IMG/VR virus record: IMGVR_UViG_3300005253_003501
Location: 1-24,135 of that record
Strand: one strand, 5' to 3'
DNA from: a virus
DNA length: 24,135 nt
Shown: positions 144-22,069 of the stretch, one piece after another
Numbering within the stretch: position 1 is the first letter of the stretch
Layout of the letters: each line of letters opens with the position of its first letter
Program-made: the position numbers and the translations under genes
Notes under the pieces: model-generated
The model's input: only the letters and a program-made list of their open reading frames with translations
What the model was told of the DNA's origin: nothing
The model's database searches: none

Positions 144-623
144 TTACATTGATAATATTGCTCCATCGAATGCATCAGTAAACTTTTTAACTTTTGGTAG
201 CAATTCTTTAATTTTATTTTTCATATTAGCCCAAAATTTTTCTATAGGATTTAAATCAGGAGAATATGGAGGAAGAAATAAAAGTTTACATCCGGCAGCT
301 TCTATTAATCTTTTACTTTCAGATGATTTATGAAAACTAGCATTATCAAGAATTAGAACTTGTCCAGGACTAAGCTTAGGAATTAAAACTTTCTTTAACC
401 AAATATTAAATAATATAGTATCACACGTTCCTTCAAAACACATTGGAGATAGAAATTTTCCTTTAAAGAGAGCGGAAATTACACTTTGTCTTGCAAAACG
501 TTTACCCGATACTTCTCCAAGAATTTTTTGATTTCGAAAACCTCTGCCATATTGCCTATAGAGATATTCATTAACTCCACTTTCATCCAGATAAATTCTT
601 TGATCAACTGGAATTTTTAACAA
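144..623 (-). CDS. IS630-family transposase, DDE catalytic part (orfB)
   Basis: This is the 159-residue catalytic half of an IS630-family transposase. The DD34E triad is intact: D13 in YLDESG, D93 in LILDNASFHKS and E128 in SPDLNPIEKFW, with 34 residues between the last two. The tail resembles the usual IS630 C-terminus. The annotated start is a TTG (621-623) with no good ribosome-binding site. The same frame extends upstream through residues typical of the family (TTFYKERNEEKRQIFRQE) to an A8 run at 679-686, so it is probably translated as a -1 frameshift product with the upstream frame (617-1270), giving about 375 residues. Two in-frame stops (TAA at 144-146 and 138-140) end it. The catalytic residues are intact, but the element seems to lack its other end, so mobility is doubtful. 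Confidence 0.9.
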   Translation of the reverse strand: MLKIPVDQRIYLDESGVNEYLYRQYGRGFRNQKILGEVSGKRFARQSVISALFKGKFLSPMCFEGTCDTILFNIWLKKVLIPKLSPGQVLILDNASFHKSSESKRLIEAAGCKLLFLPPYSPDLNPIEKFWANMKNKIKELLPKVKKFTDAFDGAILSM

Positions 624-1270
624 TTCTTGCCTGAAGATTTGTCTTTTTTCTTCATTTCTTTCCTTATAGAAAGTAGTCTTTTTTTTCGTGTAATTTTTAG
701 TCTTTTTAAAGCATAAAAAATCGTTTGAGGAGTGAGAGAGAAATGTTTTCCTATCTCAGATAAAAAATGATCCGGATGCTCCTGTATATATTTTATCAAT
801 AACTCATCATTAATTTTTTTATTTAGATCACCATCTACATAACTTTGTTCTATTAAAATTGCTTCTAAACAAACCCGAAATCGAGCAGCGGCAGCCTCTT
901 CATCTATACTAAGTAATTTACAACCTTTCTCATACAGATCAAGAAGTTTACTTGGTGTATTTTGATAGTTTTTTGATGATGGATATTCAGGTCTAAGAGA
1001 TACAATTTTTTCTAATTCAAATTCTGACGGTTCTTTATAATTCATAAATTGAAAAAGTCTAATTTCTTGTTCTTCGCATGACAAACATGTATTGTATACA
1101 TGACACCACTTTTCTTGTATGACTGGCGTCGTGTCGGGATAATGATTTAGTGTGCAAACACGATACCTAGGCACATATGTATCATTACAATATGGACATA
1201 TTCTAACTTTTTTCAAATTATTCTCTAATACATCATCCAGTCTAGCTGGTATGGGTATTTTTATTGTCAT
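617..1270 (-). CDS. Chimera: DUF4145-like N-terminus fused to IS630 transposase second HTH (orfA part)
   Basis: This 217-residue frame has two unrelated halves. Residues 1 to about 153 look like a DUF4145 protein: CPYC at 25-28 and CLSC at 62-65 as a zinc-ribbon-like pair, then SLRPEYPS, a Y-E-K-G helix, and AAAARFRVCLEAIL followed by a short GDLNKKI segment. From about residue 155 the text becomes the second helix-turn-helix of an IS630 transposase (HPDHFLSEIGKHF, then QTIFYALKRLKITRKK). The first IS630 HTH and the DUF4145 C-terminus are both missing, as expected from a deletion joining an inserted element to its target. After R195-K197 the natural IS630 sequence continues only in the -1 frame; the zero frame ends 20 residues later in sequence unlike the family. 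The start is supported by GAGGAG upstream of the ATG. It lies after gp32 in the same direction. Any remaining function is unknown. Confidence 0.72.
   Translation of the reverse strand: MTIKIPIPARLDDVLENNLKKVRICPYCNDTYVPRYRVCTLNHYPDTTPVIQEKWCHVYNTCLSCEEQEIRLFQFMNYKEPSEFELEKIVSLRPEYPSSKNYQNTPSKLLDLYEKGCKLLSIDEEAAAARFRVCLEAILIEQSYVDGDLNKKINDELLIKYIQEHPDHFLSEIGKHFSLTPQTIFYALKRLKITRKKRLLSIRKEMKKKDKSSGKNC
679..686 (-). other. Slippery A8 run, probable -1 frameshift site in IS630 transposase
   Basis: The minus strand reads CGA AAA AAA AGA in the upstream frame. Slipping back one base at this run of eight A gives AAA AAA AAG ACT ACT, which restores the family sequence KKTTFYKERNEEKRQ and leads straight into the catalytic frame. 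Split IS630 genes with frameshifting on A runs are known in the family. A real inactivating mutation of the run length would look the same. Confidence 0.7.
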
Positions 1271-1331: not shown

Positions 1332-2345
1332 TTATCCCCGTTGGGCAGCAGCCCTAGCTTTGATATCAGCAAGGATATCATCTGGTTTTTTTCTTATTTC
1401 TTCGCTCGGGGTATCAACAGAAGTCGTTACAGGCGGAGTTTCAGTCTTGGGTTCCACGACTTCTGTTGATGTGGTTTCAGCGGGAGATTCTGAAACCGTA
1501 GATGCGACTGACGAAGTCACATTAGGAGTAACTTTTGAAGTTACAGAGGAGTTATTATTAAATCCAGCAGGCTTATAGAAGTTTGACCATTTTTCTGGAT
1601 CATATAGTTCACCATTTACAGATGCTTCAAACATTTCTGCGATTGCATCAACAGTATCGGTTCCTGGTTTCTTTGGAAGGAAATCAGATAACTTGAACAG
1701 TCCATATTTTTCAACTGCTTCGATTTCTGCTTCTGTTAAGCTGGAAGTTTTGCGAGAATAGCTGGATGTTGCATAATTTGCCCATTCTCCTTGCTTCGTT
1801 TTCGTAAGTCTAAAGTCTGTTCCTGCGGTGTAATCGGTTGGGATTTCATCCATTTCCGGGTCCATTAGTGCAGCTTTGATAGCATCAAAAATGCTTGGAT
1901 TAATGACAAAGCGTCGAATTGGATTTTCTGGTCCGTCATCTTCTTGCATAGGATTATCACGAACAAATCCTTGGAAAATATAAGAACGCTTCTTCCAATA
2001 TTTACGAGCTAAATCTTCTAGAGAATTATCTTTGAACCAAGGACGAATTTCTGTAAGAACAGGGCAAGTGTCACCCCACAGTTCCATGCAAGGAACCTGA
2101 ACAAAAATATCCTTATTATTAGGGTTTGGTTGACCAACGATGCCAGGAAACGCAAGTCTTATCATCTGACGCTCTACCCAGAAAAAATCGTTAGTTTCAT
2201 CTCCGTCCGGAAGGAAACGTAGGATGGCAGTAGTATCAAATGGAATGTTCCAGAATGGATAAATGGCATTATCTGAAGTAAAACTGTTTTGTCTGGATTC
2301 TTTTTCTAACAGTTTTGCGCGTAGTTCTTGTAATTTGTTTGACAT
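1332..2345 (-). CDS. 32: Single-stranded-DNA-binding protein, T4 gp32-like
   Basis: The protein coats single-stranded DNA during phage replication, recombination and repair. It has 337 residues (T4 gp32 has 301). The N-terminus is short and basic (QELRAKLLEKESRQ). The core opens with FWNIPFDTTAILRFLPDGD, the counterpart of the gp32 start of the OB fold (AVIRFLPS in T4). It continues with WKKRSYIFQGFVRDNP and NPIRRFVINPSIFDAIKAAL, matching T4 'Y.ANILVVKDP...G.VF.Y.FGKKIWDKI'. Only two cysteines (CMELWGDTC) occupy the region where T4 has its His-Cys3 zinc site, so that site is not intact. The C-terminus is Thr/Ser/Val/Pro-rich with scattered acids, unlike T4's strongly acidic tail. The ATG at 2345 is chosen over a TTG at 2369 because AGGAG lies 10 bases before it, inside the longer frame. 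Two exact late promoters lie upstream. Confidence 0.85.
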   Translation of the reverse strand: MSNKLQELRAKLLEKESRQNSFTSDNAIYPFWNIPFDTTAILRFLPDGDETNDFFWVERQMIRLAFPGIVGQPNPNNKDIFVQVPCMELWGDTCPVLTEIRPWFKDNSLEDLARKYWKKRSYIFQGFVRDNPMQEDDGPENPIRRFVINPSIFDAIKAALMDPEMDEIPTDYTAGTDFRLTKTKQGEWANYATSSYSRKTSSLTEAEIEAVEKYGLFKLSDFLPKKPGTDTVDAIAEMFEASVNGELYDPEKWSNFYKPAGFNNNSSVTSKVTPNVTSSVASTVSESPAETTSTEVVEPKTETPPVTTSVDTPSEEIRKKPDDILADIKARAAAQRG

Positions 2346-2467
2346 TGTATTAGTTCTCCTATTAGTCAAATATTTGTTTTGTATTAGTTAAAAAGAAGGC
2401 CTTTAATCCCACTCAGAACTATTGTTCATTCTGCAATATAAAGGAAATCACTTACCTCTATTATAAC

Positions 2468-2600: not shown

Positions 2601-5600
2601 TTAATTGCGATAACGAGCCAATTGAATTATTCTTGCACCATCTTCGGAAAGCTCGGGTTCACCAGTGGGTTCTTCAGGTGCTTGTTTTAGCAAGGTTGGC
2701 ATATTACTAAGAGTAGCTTCATCGCTGAAATCTTCGGCAATTTCAGGCTCATCGGTGGGTTCTTCCTTCTTTTGATCTAATAACAATGGCATATTATCAA
2801 AAGTGGCTATACTTTCATCAGTGGATTCTTCCTTCTTTTGATCTAATAACAATGGCATATTATCAAAAGTAGCTACACTTTCATCTGTATGCGCGTTGAA
2901 ATCTTCTTCTTTCTCATCTGGATGTAATGGCAGAGGTTTCATTCTTCTACCATATGTCCCAGTATCAACATCACCACCATCTTCTGGATCAGGATACGCA
3001 CCAAAATCTTCTTTCTTAAGTCCAGCTTTGATGTCCTCTTTTCCTGCTCGACGACTTGATTTACCAGCCATTCGTTTTTGTTGTTTAGAACCAGGTTTAC
3101 CGTAACTTCCTGCCTTGCGCCGCCCTAGTTTTTTTTCAGAAGCCGCATCTTCTTCTACGTCATTTGTTTCTAAACCCGCAAGTTCACTTATTCTTGCAAG
3201 ATCAGAATCATGTTCGATACTTTCTCTTCTGCGTGGGCCGCGACCTGTTCCGAATCCTAACCCTTCGCCATGTAGAAGCATATTTGATGCCCATCTATCA
3301 AATTGTTCTGGTCTTACCATTGCATTTAATTTGTTTGTTTCCAGTGTTCTCGAAGCTTGATCTTTAAAATGAAAATCTTGGATCAATTCCAAAGATAACT
3401 GTCTTTTTGTTTCAACATCCGGAGTCCCCCAAATTGCTTGAATTTCTGTGTTGCCGACTTGTCTTAATCCAGCTTCGGCATCATACAACGGACACGGTCC
3501 TTCATGGCGATCACCGCATTTTCTACAAGGTTCAAGTTCTTCTGGAGGACCATCACTATCACCGAAGTCAGGAGGAGTAGTAGCAGTATAACGACTCCTT
3601 CCGGCATCCATTGGAGCATCGGCTTCGCCGAATTTTGCCGGACCGTAATATTGCTCAGCGTCGATTTCGTTTTTATCTCCAGCAATAACTTCATTATTGC
3701 TTAATGCAGCGTCAGCAAACTTTCCACCAAAATCGCTATCTATCAGACCCTCTTCTTCGGCTCTTTTTCGCAGTTCTTTAGTAACTGTTTCCTTAGCTTC
3801 TGGTGATCCATCAAGAAAACCATCAGAAATTTCTTGCGCTACTTTGTCAATCGCATCATTCATGCCAATTCTTCTTTCGGCTTTTAAATCTTTTAGTTTA
3901 TCGACCGCATCTTCTATTACTTGTGGGTCCATATCGCCCCACATAAATTCGGTAAGTTTTTGGCGGGTTTCGCTAATTATTTTCCAAAGTTTAGAATCTT
4001 CTTCTACGAGATTTAAAATATCGTCAAACATTTTTCGTTCTTCATAATAACTAACATATCGTTCAAATAGCGGATGTCCAACATAAAGATTTAATCTATG
4101 TAAAGCAGTCTCTGGTAGAATTTTTTCAACTTTTGGAGTTTTATCTTCTTCGATGATAAGTTCTTCTTCTTTAAAAAATTCTACATCAGCCATTTGATCA
4201 AACCACTCTTCGAGCATTGTCTCTTCTGGAGCAACACCTTCTTTATAATAATTTACAGAATGAAGACCTTCGGAATTGTCTCTGACTAATTTATGTGTCT
4301 TTCCAGTAGGACGATCGTATTCTGGAGCTTGTATCATATTAGGAACTTCATCTTCTTTTGGTTTTGGTTTTGTATCTACGGATTTCTCTTCGACGTCCGT
4401 TTCGCCATCTACATTTTTATCTTCCCAGATTGATTCACCAAATCCAATACTTTCAGTTGACGCCTTGCGAATGTTTACGCCAAGACTTTTTGCGGCATTA
4501 AACAATACAAGCATATCATCTTTACTTAGTTGATTATGTTCTGGATCTCCTAAAACATTTCCAAGATTTTCACTTGCCCTTGACCATTGAACCCATTCAG
4601 GATGATCTAGTTCAGATGGAGGAGCTAAAGTATCTTGCATTTTGAACATAAGTTCTTGTGCAGGACTTGAATAAGTTTCAGGTGCTTTTGGTCCTTTATC
4701 CATTCCGGATTCCGGTTCACCTTCAGGATCATAAGTATATTCGTTTAATCCTTCATTAACTTTTGCTTCATATTCTCTGTATTCTTGGGAACTCATAAAT
4801 GCAGGAGAACTTAAAATTCTTGATAACGCTTCAATGTCATCAGCAGAAACGGACATTCCACGTTTATTGGCAAAACGAACGGCAGCTTCTCTTTTCATGC
4901 GTTCTTTATCACCAGCAGTGTATTTTCCGCCTCGTTGCATTGGCGGGGTTACAGCAACGGCTCCTCTTAATCTATCTGGGGCAAATGATGTGATCTCATA
5001 TTCATCCAAATCTTCACTTTCGGTAAGATCAGAAGTCTGTCTAAAATATCCTACTTTTCCAGACATTTTTCTTAATGTTTCACGCAAACCAATAAAACGA
5101 GTTCTGATTTTGCCTGCGAGGTCACTACTTTGTTCAACAAGCTGTTCATCTTTACCAATAGATTTTACTTCTGCCATCATATTTTTCAAACTTGACATTT
5201 CTTCCATCATACTAGAAACTTTTATGCCAACAGTATCAAATGGAGATCCACCATTACTTAAATGACGTGCCATTGCACGGGCACCATGTAAATTATTTTC
5301 AGCTACTTTAAAACGTTCTCCGTTTTTTGTTTCAACGAAAATTGCATTTATGTTTCTACTACGAGCTCCAAATTTATCTTCGTTTACTTTATCGGTATGC
5401 CTAATAATAACTTTACATTCGCCAACTCTTTGATAACTTGAACGAGTTGTTCCTGTCATTGCTACTTTTGCTTCACTAACTGTCTTGTTAACCATAGCAG
5501 ATCCCTCTTCTACCTTTTTAATTTGATGGGCAAAATCACGTGGCTGTAATTCATGACCAAATTTTCTAATACTGTATCCCATATTCCGTCCATATTTTGC

Positions 5601-5867
5601 AGCAATATGTTTTAAAGCTTTTCCTACATTTTGTTCGAACATCGCAATATCAACATCAGGACTTAAACTAACTGATATTTTAGCTTTTTCGTCATCATCG
5701 CTTTCATGTATGGATACCATACTATTGCCCGGAACAATGAAAAACTTTCGAGCAATTTCAACGTCGTAGGTTTTGTTTGATTGATTATCAAACATTTCAA
5801 CGTTGTAGTTCGCGGCGGCCAAAATATCATAGATTTTTTTGCCTATTTTCTCATAAGGAATAGTCAT
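2601..5867 (-). CDS. Large conserved T4-like phage protein, probable virion component (1088 aa)
   Basis: I do not recognise a defined function. The N-terminal 240 residues are compact and look conserved: KKIYDILAAANYNVEMFD, FFIVPGNSMVSIHE, FGHELQPRDFAHQI, and GERFKVAENNLHGARAMARH with SNGGSPFDTVG (182-213). From memory, similar segments occur in large proteins of marine T4-like phages annotated as structural. The rest is long, acidic and lysine-rich, with predicted-disordered stretches. A possible zinc knuckle CRKCGDRHEGPC (C781, C784, H788, C792) and a very basic patch (GRRKAGSYGKPGSKQQKR, about 920-940) follow. The C-terminus carries 22-residue repeats built on TFDNMPLLLDQKKEE. It has its own GATAAATA late promoter (5898-5905) and terminator (2545-2580), so it is probably expressed late as a single gene. 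No signal peptide or membrane segment is seen. Confidence 0.6.
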   Translation of the reverse strand: MTIPYEKIGKKIYDILAAANYNVEMFDNQSNKTYDVEIARKFFIVPGNSMVSIHESDDDEKAKISVSLSPDVDIAMFEQNVGKALKHIAAKYGRNMGYSIRKFGHELQPRDFAHQIKKVEEGSAMVNKTVSEAKVAMTGTTRSSYQRVGECKVIIRHTDKVNEDKFGARSRNINAIFVETKNGERFKVAENNLHGARAMARHLSNGGSPFDTVGIKVSSMMEEMSSLKNMMAEVKSIGKDEQLVEQSSDLAGKIRTRFIGLRETLRKMSGKVGYFRQTSDLTESEDLDEYEITSFAPDRLRGAVAVTPPMQRGGKYTAGDKERMKREAAVRFANKRGMSVSADDIEALSRILSSPAFMSSQEYREYEAKVNEGLNEYTYDPEGEPESGMDKGPKAPETYSSPAQELMFKMQDTLAPPSELDHPEWVQWSRASENLGNVLGDPEHNQLSKDDMLVLFNAAKSLGVNIRKASTESIGFGESIWEDKNVDGETDVEEKSVDTKPKPKEDEVPNMIQAPEYDRPTGKTHKLVRDNSEGLHSVNYYKEGVAPEETMLEEWFDQMADVEFFKEEELIIEEDKTPKVEKILPETALHRLNLYVGHPLFERYVSYYEERKMFDDILNLVEEDSKLWKIISETRQKLTEFMWGDMDPQVIEDAVDKLKDLKAERRIGMNDAIDKVAQEISDGFLDGSPEAKETVTKELRKRAEEEGLIDSDFGGKFADAALSNNEVIAGDKNEIDAEQYYGPAKFGEADAPMDAGRSRYTATTPPDFGDSDGPPEELEPCRKCGDRHEGPCPLYDAEAGLRQVGNTEIQAIWGTPDVETKRQLSLELIQDFHFKDQASRTLETNKLNAMVRPEQFDRWASNMLLHGEGLGFGTGRGPRRRESIEHDSDLARISELAGLETNDVEEDAASEKKLGRRKAGSYGKPGSKQQKRMAGKSSRRAGKEDIKAGLKKEDFGAYPDPEDGGDVDTGTYGRRMKPLPLHPDEKEEDFNAHTDESVATFDNMPLLLDQKKEESTDESIATFDNMPLLLDQKKEEPTDEPEIAEDFSDEATLSNMPTLLKQAPEEPTGEPELSEDGARIIQLARYRN
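2760..2891 (-). repeat. Two near-identical 66-bp tandem repeats (22 aa) in the 1088-residue gene
   Basis: The unit starting at 2760 recurs at 2826 with only a few substitutions and encodes DES(V/I)ATFDNMPLLLDQKKEE(S/P)T. A diverged further copy, ATLSNMPTLLKQAPEEPT, is encoded at about 2665-2720. The reading frame is kept, so copy number could change by slippage or recombination without breaking the protein. Confidence 0.9.
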
Positions 5868-5908: not shown

Positions 5909-7501
<1,593 letters not shown>

Positions 7502-7517
7502 TTATCCTTATTGTTGT

Positions 7518-7796
7518 TTAAATTTTGTAAATTTGATCGATTAATTTATATTCGCCTGGCAAAATAATATCTACACTCGCAATTTTAACACTATAAATTG
7601 GGGCTTCTATGTTTTTAATCCAGTAATCCAAAAATTTATACATTCTTGGGTATTCTGGCGGTCGATCTAATGTTTGCCAAAGAAATTCTTGTAGGATAGA
7701 ATGATAATCTGGCAATCTATATGTTATTTCGATTGTTGTTAATCGGTAATCGTCACTAAATTGTTTTTTAAAATCTTCATGCGAGCTTTTGAACAA
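7518..7796 (-). CDS. Usg-like family protein
   Basis: The 92 residues match the Usg family along almost their whole length, which is the family's normal size (about 90-100). The match includes an F-x2-Q start, DDYRLTTIEITYRLPDYHSI, LQEFLWQTLDRPPEYPRMYKF, LDYWIKNIEAP and SVKIASVDIILPGEYKLID. Usg was named for the gene upstream of trpF in Caulobacter, and I know it as a small conserved alphaproteobacterial protein of unknown biochemical role. No catalytic motif is evident. The gene overlaps the upstream small gene by 20 bases and lies 19 bases before gp17, so it is co-translated in the packaging-gene run. The codon and base composition look like the neighbours, so any transfer from a host is not recent. 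The family call is strong; the reason for its presence in a phage is unknown. Confidence 0.85.
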   Translation of the reverse strand: MFKSSHEDFKKQFSDDYRLTTIEITYRLPDYHSILQEFLWQTLDRPPEYPRMYKFLDYWIKNIEAPIYSVKIASVDIILPGEYKLIDQIYKI

Positions 7797-8061
7797 GTTC
7801 TTCTGCCTTTAATAGTATCTGACTTCTTACTCTAGGATCTAACTCTTCTGTTTTATCAATATAAGAAAGAACAGCATTGATATGATTTATAGTCTCATCA
7901 GCAACTCTTTCATGCTCTTTTTTTACAACATGACTGGTTCCGCGTTTAGGAGATACATGGCTTAGTGGATCTTCTTTGCGTTTTGGTCCTACTGGTGAGT
8001 CAACTTCGTATTCTCCAAGTGTTTCCATTAACTTCCGCATTTCTTTCGAAATGTTTGTCAT
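7777..8061 (-). CDS. Hypothetical protein, 94 aa
   Basis: I do not recognise this protein. The first half is polar and probably disordered (EVDSPVGPKRKEDPLSHVSPKRG). The second half, from about residue 48, looks like two amphipathic helices (HERVADETINHINAVLSYID and DPRVRSQILLKAEELVQKLA), as in a small dimer or adaptor. GAGGAG precedes its ATG. It sits two bases after the 441-residue gene and overlaps the Usg-like gene by 20 bases, so it belongs to the packaging-gene transcript. I considered a second small-terminase-like role because of the helices and position, but there is no sequence support. Confidence 0.75.
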   Translation of the reverse strand: MTNISKEMRKLMETLGEYEVDSPVGPKRKEDPLSHVSPKRGTSHVVKKEHERVADETINHINAVLSYIDKTEELDPRVRSQILLKAEELVQKLA

Positions 8062-8063
8062 TC

Positions 8064-9389
8064 TTATCTCCTCTTTATGGACCTACTTGCTGCTTTTGCG
8101 GCAGTTCTCTTCATTCTTTGAATACCTGTAAGACCTTGAAATGGAAGAATATTTTGTTTAAACGAATAGCGACGTTTTGTTGCTTCATCAAATTCGTCTT
8201 CAATATCACCTACAATATCATTTACTGCTCTATCGTCAGCATTGGAAAATCCAACACGTTGTACTTCATCATCCGAAGTAACTAGTTCCATTGCTTGAGC
8301 AGGATTAATATCTCGAATAGCGGCTGGATTAGATGCATAATCTCTTTCAAGTTCGTCTGCGGTTTTTTCAATTGCTTGTAGTTTTGGGGCTGAAAGATTT
8401 CTTGGTATAGCCTTTGCTACTAATTCTCCAAATTTTGCAGGATCAACTTCATTTAGATTTTTTTTTTGAATCTCGACGTCAGAGATATATTCTCTTAAGC
8501 CTTTTCCTTTTCTTTGGTGACTTACATCTACCATCGCATTGTCACCACTACGAGCCGGAACAAATCTTACAGGTTTTCCTGCACCTCCGACAAAATCATG
8601 TGCTGTAAGTTCATACGGCTCCTGTCCGAGATTAGGATTAGGAAAGCCGTAATCGTGCTTTTTTCCAGCAAGCACGTTTTCTCCTTCTTCTAAGTCATCC
8701 TCAAACACATCAAGATCATCAGTTACAGGAATTTCGAAATCCATTTCGTCAGAAGCACCCATTTCGTCGCCCATATCTGGAGCCATATCGGCGTCCATAT
8801 CTGGAGTCATATCAGCAGGAGTGTCGGCTGGAACATCTACACCAGGCATGTCTATTGGACTTCCCATTGAATCCATTCCATCTGGATCTGCTAGTGGGCC
8901 TGCACCAACTGGCTCATTATCTGTAGGAGCCATCATTGTTGCCGGATCAAGTTCGGGCCCCGATGCTCCTAAATCTGCCATTGGATCTGGTTCCATACCC
9001 ATTGGATCTGGCTCCATACCCATCGCATCAGGAGCCACTATTTCTGGTTCTCCTAAATCCATTGTTGGAGCTGGCTCTACGGACATAGCATCCGGAGCCA
9101 TATCAGAAACAGGAGGACTAACCATTCCACTTTGTTTATCTTTGTGGAATATACCTGCCAAATCCATAAGTCTCTTTAACTCTTCGTTTCCTTGGGCATA
9201 AACTTCTACTTCTATATTGTCACCATCTTTAAAAGAAACTTCCACACGAGTTTCTGGGCCCATTGAAAGTGGATCTACATCCAGTGGACCATCTTCTATG
9301 AAAACTGCTTCTTCAAGAATTTCTTTTTCAGAAGCTTCTAAGTCTCTTAAAATCTTTAGTGATTTTCTTAAATCTTTAATTTTGTCCAT
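8064..9389 (-). CDS. Probable virion protein with Met/Asp/Pro low-complexity middle (441 aa)
   Basis: The function is not recognised. Residues 1-90 are a small ordered region (LRKSLKILRDLEASEKEILEE, then TRVEVSFKDGDNIEVEVYAQ, then NEELKRLMDLAGIFHK). Residues from about 90 to 240 are a strongly acidic Met/Pro/Asp-rich low-complexity stretch with GMEPDPM and DMAPDMG repeats. The last 200 residues are more ordered and end very basic (RMKRTAAKAASRSIKRR). The ordered, acidic disordered and basic-tail layout, and the position between gp16 and gp17, suggest a virion component or assembly factor. It lies between the 282-residue gene and the 94-residue gene with short gaps, probably in the transcript starting at 10294. 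AAAGGG upstream of the ATG is a modest ribosome-binding site. Confidence 0.7.
   Translation of the reverse strand: MDKIKDLRKSLKILRDLEASEKEILEEAVFIEDGPLDVDPLSMGPETRVEVSFKDGDNIEVEVYAQGNEELKRLMDLAGIFHKDKQSGMVSPPVSDMAPDAMSVEPAPTMDLGEPEIVAPDAMGMEPDPMGMEPDPMADLGASGPELDPATMMAPTDNEPVGAGPLADPDGMDSMGSPIDMPGVDVPADTPADMTPDMDADMAPDMGDEMGASDEMDFEIPVTDDLDVFEDDLEEGENVLAGKKHDYGFPNPNLGQEPYELTAHDFVGGAGKPVRFVPARSGDNAMVDVSHQRKGKGLREYISDVEIQKKNLNEVDPAKFGELVAKAIPRNLSAPKLQAIEKTADELERDYASNPAAIRDINPAQAMELVTSDDEVQRVGFSNADDRAVNDIVGDIEDEFDEATKRRYSFKQNILPFQGLTGIQRMKRTAAKAASRSIKRR
8980..9021 (-). repeat. Two 21-bp tandem repeats encoding (MGMEPDP)2
   Basis: The units 8980-9000 and 9001-9021 differ at a single base. They lie in a longer GGATCTG/CCAT-rich low-complexity region of the 441-residue gene. 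Confidence 0.9.
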
Positions 9390-9406: not shown

Positions 9407-10255
9407 TTAGCTCTTTTTACGGATGCCTTCTCTTTCGTTTTTAACAGTAACAACAGCTACTTTTTTACCGTCAGCACCATATTTATTATATTTTTTAGTT
9501 TGTTTTATCTCATCATCGTCATAATTTGCTCTGATACTAAGACGTGCTTGTCCAATCTTTCCTTCTTTTCGAAGATTTTTTAAAGTTTCAGCATAAATTG
9601 AATATTTTGGTTCAGGAGCATCAACAATATCTTCATTAAAAGCATTTGGTGGAGCAACATCATCAGCATCTAAGACGGTTCCTCCTTCGTCCAGCTCCGT
9701 GGATTCTACATCTACTAGGAATTCGTCACGATCAGAAGATACTTGTGCGAGCACTTCAAGAAATCTTGAATTGTAATCATTTCCATAAACTGGATCTTCG
9801 AGTGTTCCTAGTTCATCGTCATCATATGCACTGTTTGTACTTAAACGTGGTGCTGGGCTTAATCCCTGCTCCATTGCTTCCATATCAATTTCATCTCTAG
9901 CAGCCATCCTCTGAGTTTCTACCTCTTTTGGATCGTTGGCATTTCTAACGACAATATATTTTTCCGGAATGTTTAATGCTAATTTTAGTTCTTGCTGTAG
10001 AACATAGGCACTGACTGGCAGCGCAGTAACAATATCTACTATCCATACTTCAACGTTAGTAAGATCTCTAAAATCTAAAGGATGTTTTTGTAGAATAGTT
10101 TTCACGGGTTTGGTAATATCTCTCAAGACGTATTTGTCAAGAACTCGTTCCATATATTCAAGTTCTTGATCGTCGAGAGGGACAACTGTCTTAATACGCA
10201 GATTATACTCTCGTTCGCGTTCTTGTACATAATCCTTAAATGATTTTACAGTCAT
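9407..10255 (-). CDS. Conserved T4-like phage protein, probable virion component (282 aa)
   Basis: The N-terminal half (about 1-125) is an ordered domain: FKDYVQEREREYNLRIKTV, LDDQELEYMERVLDKYVL, ILQKHPLDFRDL, EVWIVDIVTALPVSAYVLQQ and LKLALNIPEKYIVVRNANDP. I recall similar domains in marine T4-like phage proteins annotated as structural, but the role is unknown. The rest is acidic and loosely structured, with GQARLSIRANYDDDE and a lysine-rich end (KKYNKYGADGKK). The ATG at 10255 is preferred over the TTG at 10273 because GAGGA lies about 11 bases before it. An AATAAATA late promoter at 10294-10301 is ideally placed, making this the first gene of a run toward gp17. Confidence 0.7.
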   Translation of the reverse strand: MTVKSFKDYVQEREREYNLRIKTVVPLDDQELEYMERVLDKYVLRDITKPVKTILQKHPLDFRDLTNVEVWIVDIVTALPVSAYVLQQELKLALNIPEKYIVVRNANDPKEVETQRMAARDEIDMEAMEQGLSPAPRLSTNSAYDDDELGTLEDPVYGNDYNSRFLEVLAQVSSDRDEFLVDVESTELDEGGTVLDADDVAPPNAFNEDIVDAPEPKYSIYAETLKNLRKEGKIGQARLSIRANYDDDEIKQTKKYNKYGADGKKVAVVTVKNEREGIRKKS

Positions 10256-10293
10256 TAGAAGAAACATCCTCAACTAGTTAATTATAACACTTG

Positions 10294-10318: not shown

Positions 10319-10819
10319 TTAGTCTTCTTTTAGCTCTACATCAACAATATTGTCTCTAGATTCAGCAACTAATTGTTTTAAAAGTGCATTTCTATCCGCT
10401 AGTATTACTTTTCCATGCGAAATTTCCCCAATCAACTCATCATCTATTTTTAGACGACGCGCCTCAAGTTTTAATTTAGCTGCTTTTAGCTGTTTCTCTG
10501 ATTTAGAATTTGCTGCATCCAGGCCAGTTTTTAACATCTGTCCTGCAACTTCGAATAAACGGGCGCTGCGTTCTGGATTTACATTTCTTGCCACTTCAGC
10601 AACTTCATCACATAAAGCAATTGCTTTTTTTCTTATTTCTTCCGTTTCTCTGTCGTGCTGATCTTCCATGACATTAGCTAATATTCCTGCGTTTCTTGGA
10701 AGATTAACTAAAGTATTAGACACTTCTTCAAGTTCACATTCAAGTTTATCAGCATTTTGTTCTGCTAATGCGTCTTCTAAAGGCGGCAGATCGAAAAATT
10801 CATCTACTTTTTTTGTCAT
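10319..10819 (-). CDS. 16: Terminase small subunit, T4 gp16-like
   Basis: The 166 residues (T4 gp16 has 164) are mostly helical. The centre, VARNVNPERSARLFEVAGQMLKTGLDAAN, matches the gp16 pattern of a helix, then a Pro-Arg turn, then 'E V..TLM......N'. A long coiled-coil-like helix rich in Lys/Ala/Leu follows (KQLKAAKLKLEARRLKIDDE), and the C-terminus is acidic. Gp16 forms rings that recognise DNA and stimulate gp17. Its start overlaps the gp4 stop as ATGA (10816-10819), so the two are translationally coupled. In T4 gene 16 directly precedes gene 17; here four genes separate them. The identification rests on length, helix pattern and context, because the family is very divergent. Confidence 0.68.
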   Translation of the reverse strand: MTKKVDEFFDLPPLEDALAEQNADKLECELEEVSNTLVNLPRNAGILANVMEDQHDRETEEIRKKAIALCDEVAEVARNVNPERSARLFEVAGQMLKTGLDAANSKSEKQLKAAKLKLEARRLKIDDELIGEISHGKVILADRNALLKQLVAESRDNIVDVELKED

Positions 10820-11289
10820 TTTCTTTTCTTTCTCTTAGTTCCTGTAAGTTGAGCGAACATGTCCCTTTCTGTCATAATTCTAAATCTATAACCACGTGCG
10901 GCACACCATTTTTGAGCGGTCTTCCATTTCATTTTATTTATAGACAATAAAATCTTGTTTCTTGTGCCTCGAGCCTTTTCTCTAACTGTTTGATTTAATG
11001 GTTTAATTTCAACAATATCGACATGTTGCTTTCCGTTTTTGTCTATATATTGCATAAGAAAATCTGGAATATAAATTGTATTAGGAATCCCTGGAGCACC
11101 TTTTTTATAAGGATTCCAATATGGAATTTTAATACTCTCACTTGCCCATTTTTGTATATTTGGGTGCTGATCACAGCGGTGCATCAAAACTAATTCCCAA
11201 GAAGAACGATAGATAATTGGATATGTTCCGATGTACTTCTCCGGATTTTTTGGTATGAATTCTCCGCGACTAAATTTTGGTTTCTTCAT
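10816..11289 (-). CDS. 4: Head completion protein, T4 gp4-like
   Basis: The 157 residues (about the T4 gp4 size) show the family pattern clearly: SRGEFIPKNPEKYIGTYP, IIYRSSWELVLMHRCDQHP, IQKWASESIKIPYWNPYKKG, YIPDFLMQYIDKNGKQHVDIVEIKP, then KWKTAQKWCAARGYRFRIMTE. The motifs SSWE, PDF and EIKP resemble the catalytic layout of PD-(D/E)XK/TnsA-like nucleases. Gp4 is needed to finish the DNA-filled head before tail joining, possibly by trimming DNA. The start overlaps the stop of the tube-like gene as ATGA (11286-11289), and its end overlaps the start of gp16. This is a coupled trio. Confidence 0.92.
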   Translation of the reverse strand: MKKPKFSRGEFIPKNPEKYIGTYPIIYRSSWELVLMHRCDQHPNIQKWASESIKIPYWNPYKKGAPGIPNTIYIPDFLMQYIDKNGKQHVDIVEIKPLNQTVREKARGTRNKILLSINKMKWKTAQKWCAARGYRFRIMTERDMFAQLTGTKRKKRK

Positions 11290-21391: not shown

Positions 21392-22069
21392 TTAAACCTT
21401 CAATGTATACTGCGTATCCGCATCTGTGAACTTCTCTACTAACTCTCTAACTCTAAGTTCAAGATCTTCAACAGTTCCGTTGTTTTCTATAACTTCGTCG
21501 ACAGTGTGACCAATCCAAGCGGTTTCGCTTTCGTGTGGTATTGAGTTACAAGATTTCATTACTTCGATTTCTCTAAGATCATCTTCGTCACAAAGTCCGC
21601 GATTAAAGAAGTTCATTAGTTGATAAAAATGAGGTTCAGGGCCTCTTTTAACGCGCAACACAACACCATTATTATCACGGATCATATCAATCTCATTAGG
21701 AAAACGACAATCCGTAATAACTGTATGTGGCTTTCCTGCATCGAGCCATCGTTTTTCTACAGTAGAAACCCAGATATCTTCACCGAGAACATGGCGACAT
21801 CCTTCGGTTCCAAGTAACTGTAATCCCATTCTTGGAGTAAAGTTCTTGATATCAAGACGCAGCGACCAAAATCTATCTGTTTGTTCTCTCTGAAATCTGC
21901 TCTCTGGCGTAGCGCCTTCAAGCATCTCTCTATCCCATCCAAATATAGTTGATGCAGCACCTTTCAAGCTTTTAGCGAAGCTGTCTGTTTTGAAATTATG
22001 ATTATTAACCATAAATTCGCCCACGGTTCCTTTACCGCAGTTCATAAAACCTACTACGCCAACTAGCAT
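21392..22069 (-). CDS. 1: Deoxynucleoside monophosphate kinase, T4 gp1-like
   Basis: The enzyme phosphorylates dNMPs to dNDPs for phage DNA synthesis. It has 225 residues (T4 gp1 has 241). The P-loop GFMNCGKGT (7-15) is near the N-terminus, followed by FKTDSFAKSLKGAASTIFGW, which matches the T4 'YQLAGPIKDAL...G' segment. The central GLQLLGTEGCRHVLGEDIWV corresponds to T4 'LMQALGTDL......YWV', and HTVITDCRFPNEIDMIRDNN corresponds to 'YYIVPDTRQDHEMDAAR' with the conserved D-R pair. The end HESETAWIGHTVDEVIENNG matches the family 'H.TE....... I.NDG'. AAGGAG precedes the ATG, 12 bases after the neighbouring gene, so the two form an operon from the divergent promoter. Confidence 0.86.
   Translation of the reverse strand: MLVGVVGFMNCGKGTVGEFMVNNHNFKTDSFAKSLKGAASTIFGWDREMLEGATPESRFQREQTDRFWSLRLDIKNFTPRMGLQLLGTEGCRHVLGEDIWVSTVEKRWLDAGKPHTVITDCRFPNEIDMIRDNNGVVLRVKRGPEPHFYQLMNFFNRGLCDEDDLREIEVMKSCNSIPHESETAWIGHTVDEVIENNGTVEDLELRVRELVEKFTDADTQYTLKV

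Follow-up and report, generated by a model that had tools for sequence, protein, structure and literature searches.

A Usg-family gene ahead of the large terminase of a T4-like phage and its possible link to the GroESL chaperonin

What a member of Usg, a small bacterial protein family, does in a T4-like phage, where it is encoded just ahead of the large terminase gene gp17, is the question raised by a 24-kb IMG/VR fragment (IMGVR_UViG_3300005253_003501; all 24,135 nucleotides of it are called the window here). An earlier note, made from the sequence alone, had described the ORF at 7518-7796 as a full-length Usg homologue inside a DNA-packaging gene run, and had taken it to hint at an alphaproteobacterial host and a head or packaging context. 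In Pfam the encoded protein matched PF06233 (Usg) only, with 97.2 bits (E = 6e-28) against a curated cut-off of 27 bits. Residues 15-90 aligned with positions 3-78 of the 80-position profile (76 of 80 positions), and a second profile search gave 96.6 bits with no stops inside the match. Judged by its sequence, the ORF does encode a Usg protein, and the homologue proposed in the note is borne out. The conserved core of the family (Y, P-D, W-Q, D, P, F-L, W) was invariant or nearly so in alignments of 28 and of 65 sequences that included the window and a cellular copy, and the window protein shares about 51-52% identity, over common columns, with the closest cellular copies in the sample. It also retains a C-terminal tail similar to that of cellular Usg and the N-terminal D-F...Y-x-L-T-T stretch common to the cellular proteins, which supports the predicted TTG start. 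The Usg protein had no PHROG match. Assignment as a GroES/gp31 co-chaperonin was rejected on sequence, only Usg having been matched in Pfam, with no Cpn10 and no HSP20. Assignment as the small terminase gp16 was likewise rejected, there being no PHROG or Pfam terminase match, and another ORF (10319-10819) is the better, if weak, candidate.

The gene overlaps the upstream 94-aa ORF by 20 bp, and 19 bp separate its stop from the ATG of the 529-aa gp17 ORF, in agreement with the overlap and close linkage first described. Markers of a T4-like phage in the window are a T4-type gp17, a gp4-like protein, a sheath protein, two tail-tube relatives and gp32 (Table 1). The run around usg is not one of packaging genes only; head, neck and tail genes (gp4-like, tube, sheath) are mixed in it. 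The order usg, terL, large ORF, gp32 is common to the window, L324, L187, L179 and others (L numbers designate the loci compared). No tRNA was found in the window.

Table 1. Genes around usg in the window.
Feature	Coordinates	Strand	Evidence and remarks
gp32-like single-strand DNA-binding protein	1332..2369	-	PF08804, E 5e-7
1088-aa ORF directly 3' of TerL	2601..5867	-	large ORF at the equivalent place in many usg-terL phages
Large terminase gp17 (TerL)	5909..7498	-	Terminase_6N, E 7.3e-19; Terminase_6C; PHROG 36964, E 9e-116
Usg homologue (PF06233)	7518..7796	-	92 aa, TTG start (predicted); Pfam 97.2 bits, E 6e-28
94-aa ORF, no assigned function	7777..8061	-	overlaps usg by 20 bp; counterpart in L002
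441-aa acidic ORF, upstream	8064..9389	-	similarly placed relatives in L002, L006 and probably L324; no Pfam match
Virion structural protein	9407..10273	-	PHROG 14802, E 9e-14
Small terminase subunit, weak candidate	10319..10819	-	PHROG 445, E 0.0016
Head completion/closure protein (gp4-like)	10816..11289	-	PHROG 218, E 8.5e-38

Compared over 65 codons with its closest relative, L002, the window gene showed 13 synonymous and 5 non-synonymous substitutions, indicating that it is conserved as a protein under purifying selection. The synonymous excess, the invariance of the core residues across divergent phages and the hundreds of known copies, most of which lie in runs of genes on one strand, all argue against phage usg being a recent passenger without function. 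That reading could draw on the patchy presence of the gene and on a frame-disrupting 26-bp duplication in L002; it is largely refuted by the conservation, and we consider it very improbable. The duplication in L002 is in tandem (8160-8215) and shifts the frame near the N-terminus; the gene copy may be defective, or the contig may be misassembled.

The nearest cultured relatives of the window terminase were those of the Sinorhizobium jumbo phage Phosso (52% identity), the PA5oct-like Pseudomonas phages (50%) and Agrobacterium phage Atu_ph07 (48%). The gene order around terL in these jumbo phages is broadly similar to that of the window, but no usg is present anywhere in their records, and in Phosso and PA5oct the upstream gene directly abuts terL. 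A profile search of the whole records of eleven cultured or single-cell relatives revealed no Usg; on the terminase side these were Phosso, PA5oct, Atu_ph07, PBECO4 and Vibrio phage 2.275.O, and from other groups the pelagiphages Mosig and HTVC008M, Methylophilales phage Melnitz-3, Synechococcus phage S-BM3, marine virus AG-345-L05 and Stenotrophomonas phage DLP_6. Five Usg variants searched with tblastn against 50,697 phage records gave no match at E <= 1. Of 36 uncultured loci whose terminases are related, L002/L361, the closest relative, and L362 (148 kb) have usg ahead of terL; in L324 (194 kb), which was found via Usg, it is also directly ahead of terL. Since usg is absent from the cultured relatives and present in these uncultured ones, it is an accessory gene even among relatives of this terminase. 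An alphaproteobacterial host is plausible from the cellular range of the family and from the Phosso terminase; it is not established, however, because the Pseudomonas phage terminases are almost as close. Usg may nevertheless serve as a host marker for marine T4-like phages that have no assigned host.

A scan of IMG/VR by alignment returned 351 viral contigs that encode Usg relatives, and scans with other members of the family as query returned 482, 248 and 54; the contigs are mostly marine, the sets partly overlap, and that of 482 is the largest single one. A total of 250 loci were classified by clustering of neighbours, the cluster representatives being identified with Pfam and PHROGs. By neighbours within three genes, and with a few contigs present twice, 92 loci were of baseplate type, 56 of replication type and 35 of capsid type, while 22 had TerL nearby and 45 were of other types. 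When only distinct sequences (90% identity) were counted, the numbers were 32, 9, 14, 15 (including the window) and 23, respectively. The baseplate-type order is hub lysozyme, PAAR, an unknown gene, usg, gp25 and gp6; the replication-type order is gp44, gp62, RegA, dUTPase and usg; and the capsid-type order is gp21 protease, gp22 scaffold, gp23, usg and gp19 tube. In terL-type loci usg is usually immediately ahead of terL, the exceptions being L325-L327, with terL two genes off and on the other strand, and L082, with terL three genes downstream. The adjacency recurs with divergent Usg proteins (window, L324, L215, L187, L177, L179, L234, L182 and L305/L308), with gaps of -41 to +11 bp across many distinct lineages. 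Overall, 421 of 474 flanking genes lie on the same strand as phage usg, the median gaps ranging from about -10 to about +80 bp. Two apparent domain fusions of Usg, G473 and G259, were rejected, having proved to be a normal usg gene and a short stretch of degenerate sequence within spurious long frames.

The occurrence of usg in at least four different modules means that a packaging role cannot be assigned from its adjacency to gp17 and weakens a role specific to packaging; the functional context of head or packaging hinted at initially is therefore not borne out. More broadly, Usg could be a small virion or packaging protein that builds or matures the head, baseplate or packaging motor, with its bacterial copies incidental. 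The predominance of structural clusters among the phage loci and the repeated, tightly spaced usg-terL pairs speak for such a protein. Against it stand the 56 loci in the clamp-loader/RegA/dUTPase replication cluster and the want of any constant structural module, the eleven cultured relatives that have the same modules and no usg, the lack of a PHROG match, and the wide distribution of usg in cells where phage genes do not surround it. We regard this explanation as unlikely, if still one to be weighed seriously.

Two further features were observed in these phage loci. In L006 (10619-14653) terL is interrupted: its N-terminal part is followed by an endonuclease-like ORF on the opposite strand and later by terminase fragments lying within sequence that resembles an intein or intron. 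In L029/L190 and relatives, an ORF of ~101 aa after gp19 reads like an A-type Fe-S carrier (IscA-like); 15 loci with the order gp23-usg-gp19 have it as the second gene beyond usg.

The cellular copies of usg were examined for their own context. Usg was detected in 88 of 190 and 120 of 289 genomes, two overlapping samples, of the class to which a Tepidamorphus MAG belongs (Alphaproteobacteria), and in 0 of 48 genomes of another class of the same phylum; among 14 named control genomes it was found only in Caulobacter. The cellular family is thus alphaproteobacterial as far as tested, as had been supposed. GroES/GroEL genes were found near usg in 26 of 41 cellular loci of about 10 kb, where ~0.16 would be expected by chance; the other 15 have no groESL within about 5 kb. 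The two transcription units are nearly always divergent, with the GroES start typically 150-740 bp from usg. Clustering of neighbours in 40 cellular loci revealed groESL (GroEL 25, GroES 24) as the only neighbour recurring in most of them, the next-commonest occurring in 7.

The regions shared by divergent usg and groESL contain a CIRCE (HrcA) site with three or fewer mismatches in 21 of 22 cases, and shuffled sequences never fell below five. Only 31 such sites were present in 400 kb of cellular loci, nearly all of them just upstream of usg or groESL. CIRCE also lies upstream of usg where there is no groESL in 10 kb (L149, at -197; L161, at -129), and in L165 usg has a site at -133 while groESL, 2.7 kb away, has its own. 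In heat-shock microarrays of Mesorhizobium loti, msl2390, annotated as a Usg family protein, had an M value of 5.54 and groEL (mlr2394) one of 5.79 (PMC3989490); from the locus numbers the two genes would be neighbours. Bacterial usg therefore appears to be part of the heat-shock regulon governed by HrcA and CIRCE, and it is physically linked to groESL. No discussion of a usg-chaperonin link was found in the literature, and essentially nothing on Usg function; the link appears undescribed. A shared promoter region implies co-regulation of usg and groESL, not a shared function.

The name usg comes from an ORF beside the trp genes in Caulobacter. An unrelated metabolic or regulatory role, in which the linkage to groESL would reflect shared regulation and nothing more, finds an echo in a single tryptophan synthase alpha gene among the neighbours of copies lacking groESL. 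The evidence from the 40 loci, in which nothing other than groESL recurs in most, and the retention by usg of its own CIRCE away from groESL are contrary to this role, which we judge quite unlikely. PF06233 is given as the accession of a TrpB domain in PMC8092295, apparently in error.

Unlike the cellular genes, the window copy is not beside groESL, and no CIRCE was found in the window. No groES or groEL was found in the phage usg loci searched and no phage-borne Cpn10/groES in 21 Usg-bearing viral contigs, results indicating that phage usg travels without the chaperonin genes. Hsp20, present in 4 of 22 contigs, is not a consistent companion of usg.

The origin of the phage copies was investigated with a tree of 51 rows and 76 columns that included 30 phage sequences. 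The window and L324 formed a supported pair (99/80), and the remaining phage copies grouped together weakly. A tree with all 30 constrained to one clade was not rejected (p-AU 0.57), and its likelihood was above that of the free search. On these sequences the simplest reading would be a single capture of usg from Alphaproteobacteria followed by relocation, although several origins would also be compatible with the 76 columns. A few IMG/VR copies (e.g. L314-L319, L322 and L023) fell on the cellular side of the tree and could represent flanking bacterial DNA or independent captures. In L317 (IMGVR_UViG_3300049982_000294) divergent ORFs of 104 and 542 aa, lengths that would fit GroES and GroEL, stand ahead of usg, and this 'viral' contig is probably bacterial DNA.

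An AlphaFold2 model of the window protein predicted strands at 18-27 and 35-44, a helix at 50-62 and a strand at 67-76, with pLDDT of 92-96 in the core. The model had no fold match in the PDB at E <= 0.001, with no GroES-like fold among the matches shown, and a sequence search of the PDB gave nothing significant. In BFVD the only close viral models were A0A6J5KMR6, named 'Usg-like', and one unnamed viral protein. The former, from an uncultured Caudovirales phage, is a phage-borne homologue of 32% identity (TM 0.63-0.71), and its presence in UniProt means that phage Usg as such is previously named; it differs from the present case in that it is a database name only, to which the literature searched gives no context or role.

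The placement of usg beside groESL with CIRCE in bacteria is more telling than its packaging position in the phage. We tentatively favour, at somewhat less than even confidence, the explanation that Usg is a small stress protein working together with, or in parallel to, the chaperonin GroESL, and that the phage copy sustains or biases chaperone capacity for the folding of virion proteins. T4-like phages would have taken the gene over from an alphaproteobacterium, in the simplest case a single time, and in phages it has since behaved as a mobile accessory gene slotting into late and replication operons. Phage-made Usg, encoded just ahead of gp17 here, would sustain or bias the capacity of the host chaperones at a time when virion proteins are being folded in bulk. 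What is observed is that the gene belongs to the family, is conserved, occupies several kinds of position in phages and is associated in bacteria with groESL and CIRCE; that it acts directly on clients of the chaperonin, which clients these are and when it is expressed are parts that we infer.

A precedent for the proposed purpose is the folding of T4 gp23, which requires GroEL and the phage protein gp31 (PMC3012670), and an active small heat shock protein is carried by a cyanophage (PMC5028025). Usg would resemble T4 gp31 and the RB49 co-chaperonin CocO in being phage-encoded help to the host GroEL (PMC3012670); it has no sequence or fold relation to them, its modelled core being strand-strand-helix-strand. 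A wider and more doubtful proposal, though a possible one, is that Usg is an unrecognised chaperonin-linked heat-shock factor of Alphaproteobacteria, captured by T4-like phages as a new chaperone aid for virion folding in alphaproteobacterial hosts, one different in kind from gp31, from phage GroEL and from phage Hsp20. If phage Usg does aid folding, T4-like phages would have another, unrelated supply of chaperone help.

The CIRCE sites on cellular usg are open to a different interpretation, that Usg is a host-takeover factor whose phage version either competes with its host counterpart, so as to damp or trigger the heat-shock response under HrcA, or acts against a defence tied to stress. The phage copies are patchy and mobile, as accessory host-interaction genes are, and those in the replication cluster could be expressed early. 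Most copies, however, lie in late-type structural operons, which is late for takeover, and no inhibitory motif or fold was found; this interpretation seems to us rather improbable. With respect to the preferred role alongside GroESL, the groESL/CIRCE placement and the hundreds of operon-like phage copies turn the function of Usg into a testable heat-shock/chaperonin question, and the phage copies offer phage genetics a route into the family.

Several other features of the window were recorded. An IS630-type transposase at 144-1270 (-) adjoins gp32 and is split into two overlapping frames, 617-1270 with HTH_Tnp_IS630 and 144-623, which reads like the C-terminal part of a DDE-type enzyme. An insertion sequence is unusual in a lytic-type phage. 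Its nearest plasmid matches were from Rhabdochlamydia, Neochlamydia and Spiroplasma (65-75% identity), and host assignment through the element was abandoned because the best match, on a Rhabdochlamydia plasmid, was only 69% identical and too distant to use. The T4 late-promoter-like sequence TATAAATA occurs exactly at three sites (2468, 2507 and 10935, -), all on the coding strand and two of them upstream of gp32; a reversed-pattern control gave one match. Near-repeats of TDESIATFDNMPLLLDQKKEE were present at 2601-2900, where the 1088-aa ORF that follows TerL encodes its C terminus. The ORF at 21392-22069 (-) showed weak similarity (E 3e-7, under the curated cut-off) to PRK08356 and to P-loop proteins of the dephospho-CoA kinase type, and is possibly a nucleotide kinase.
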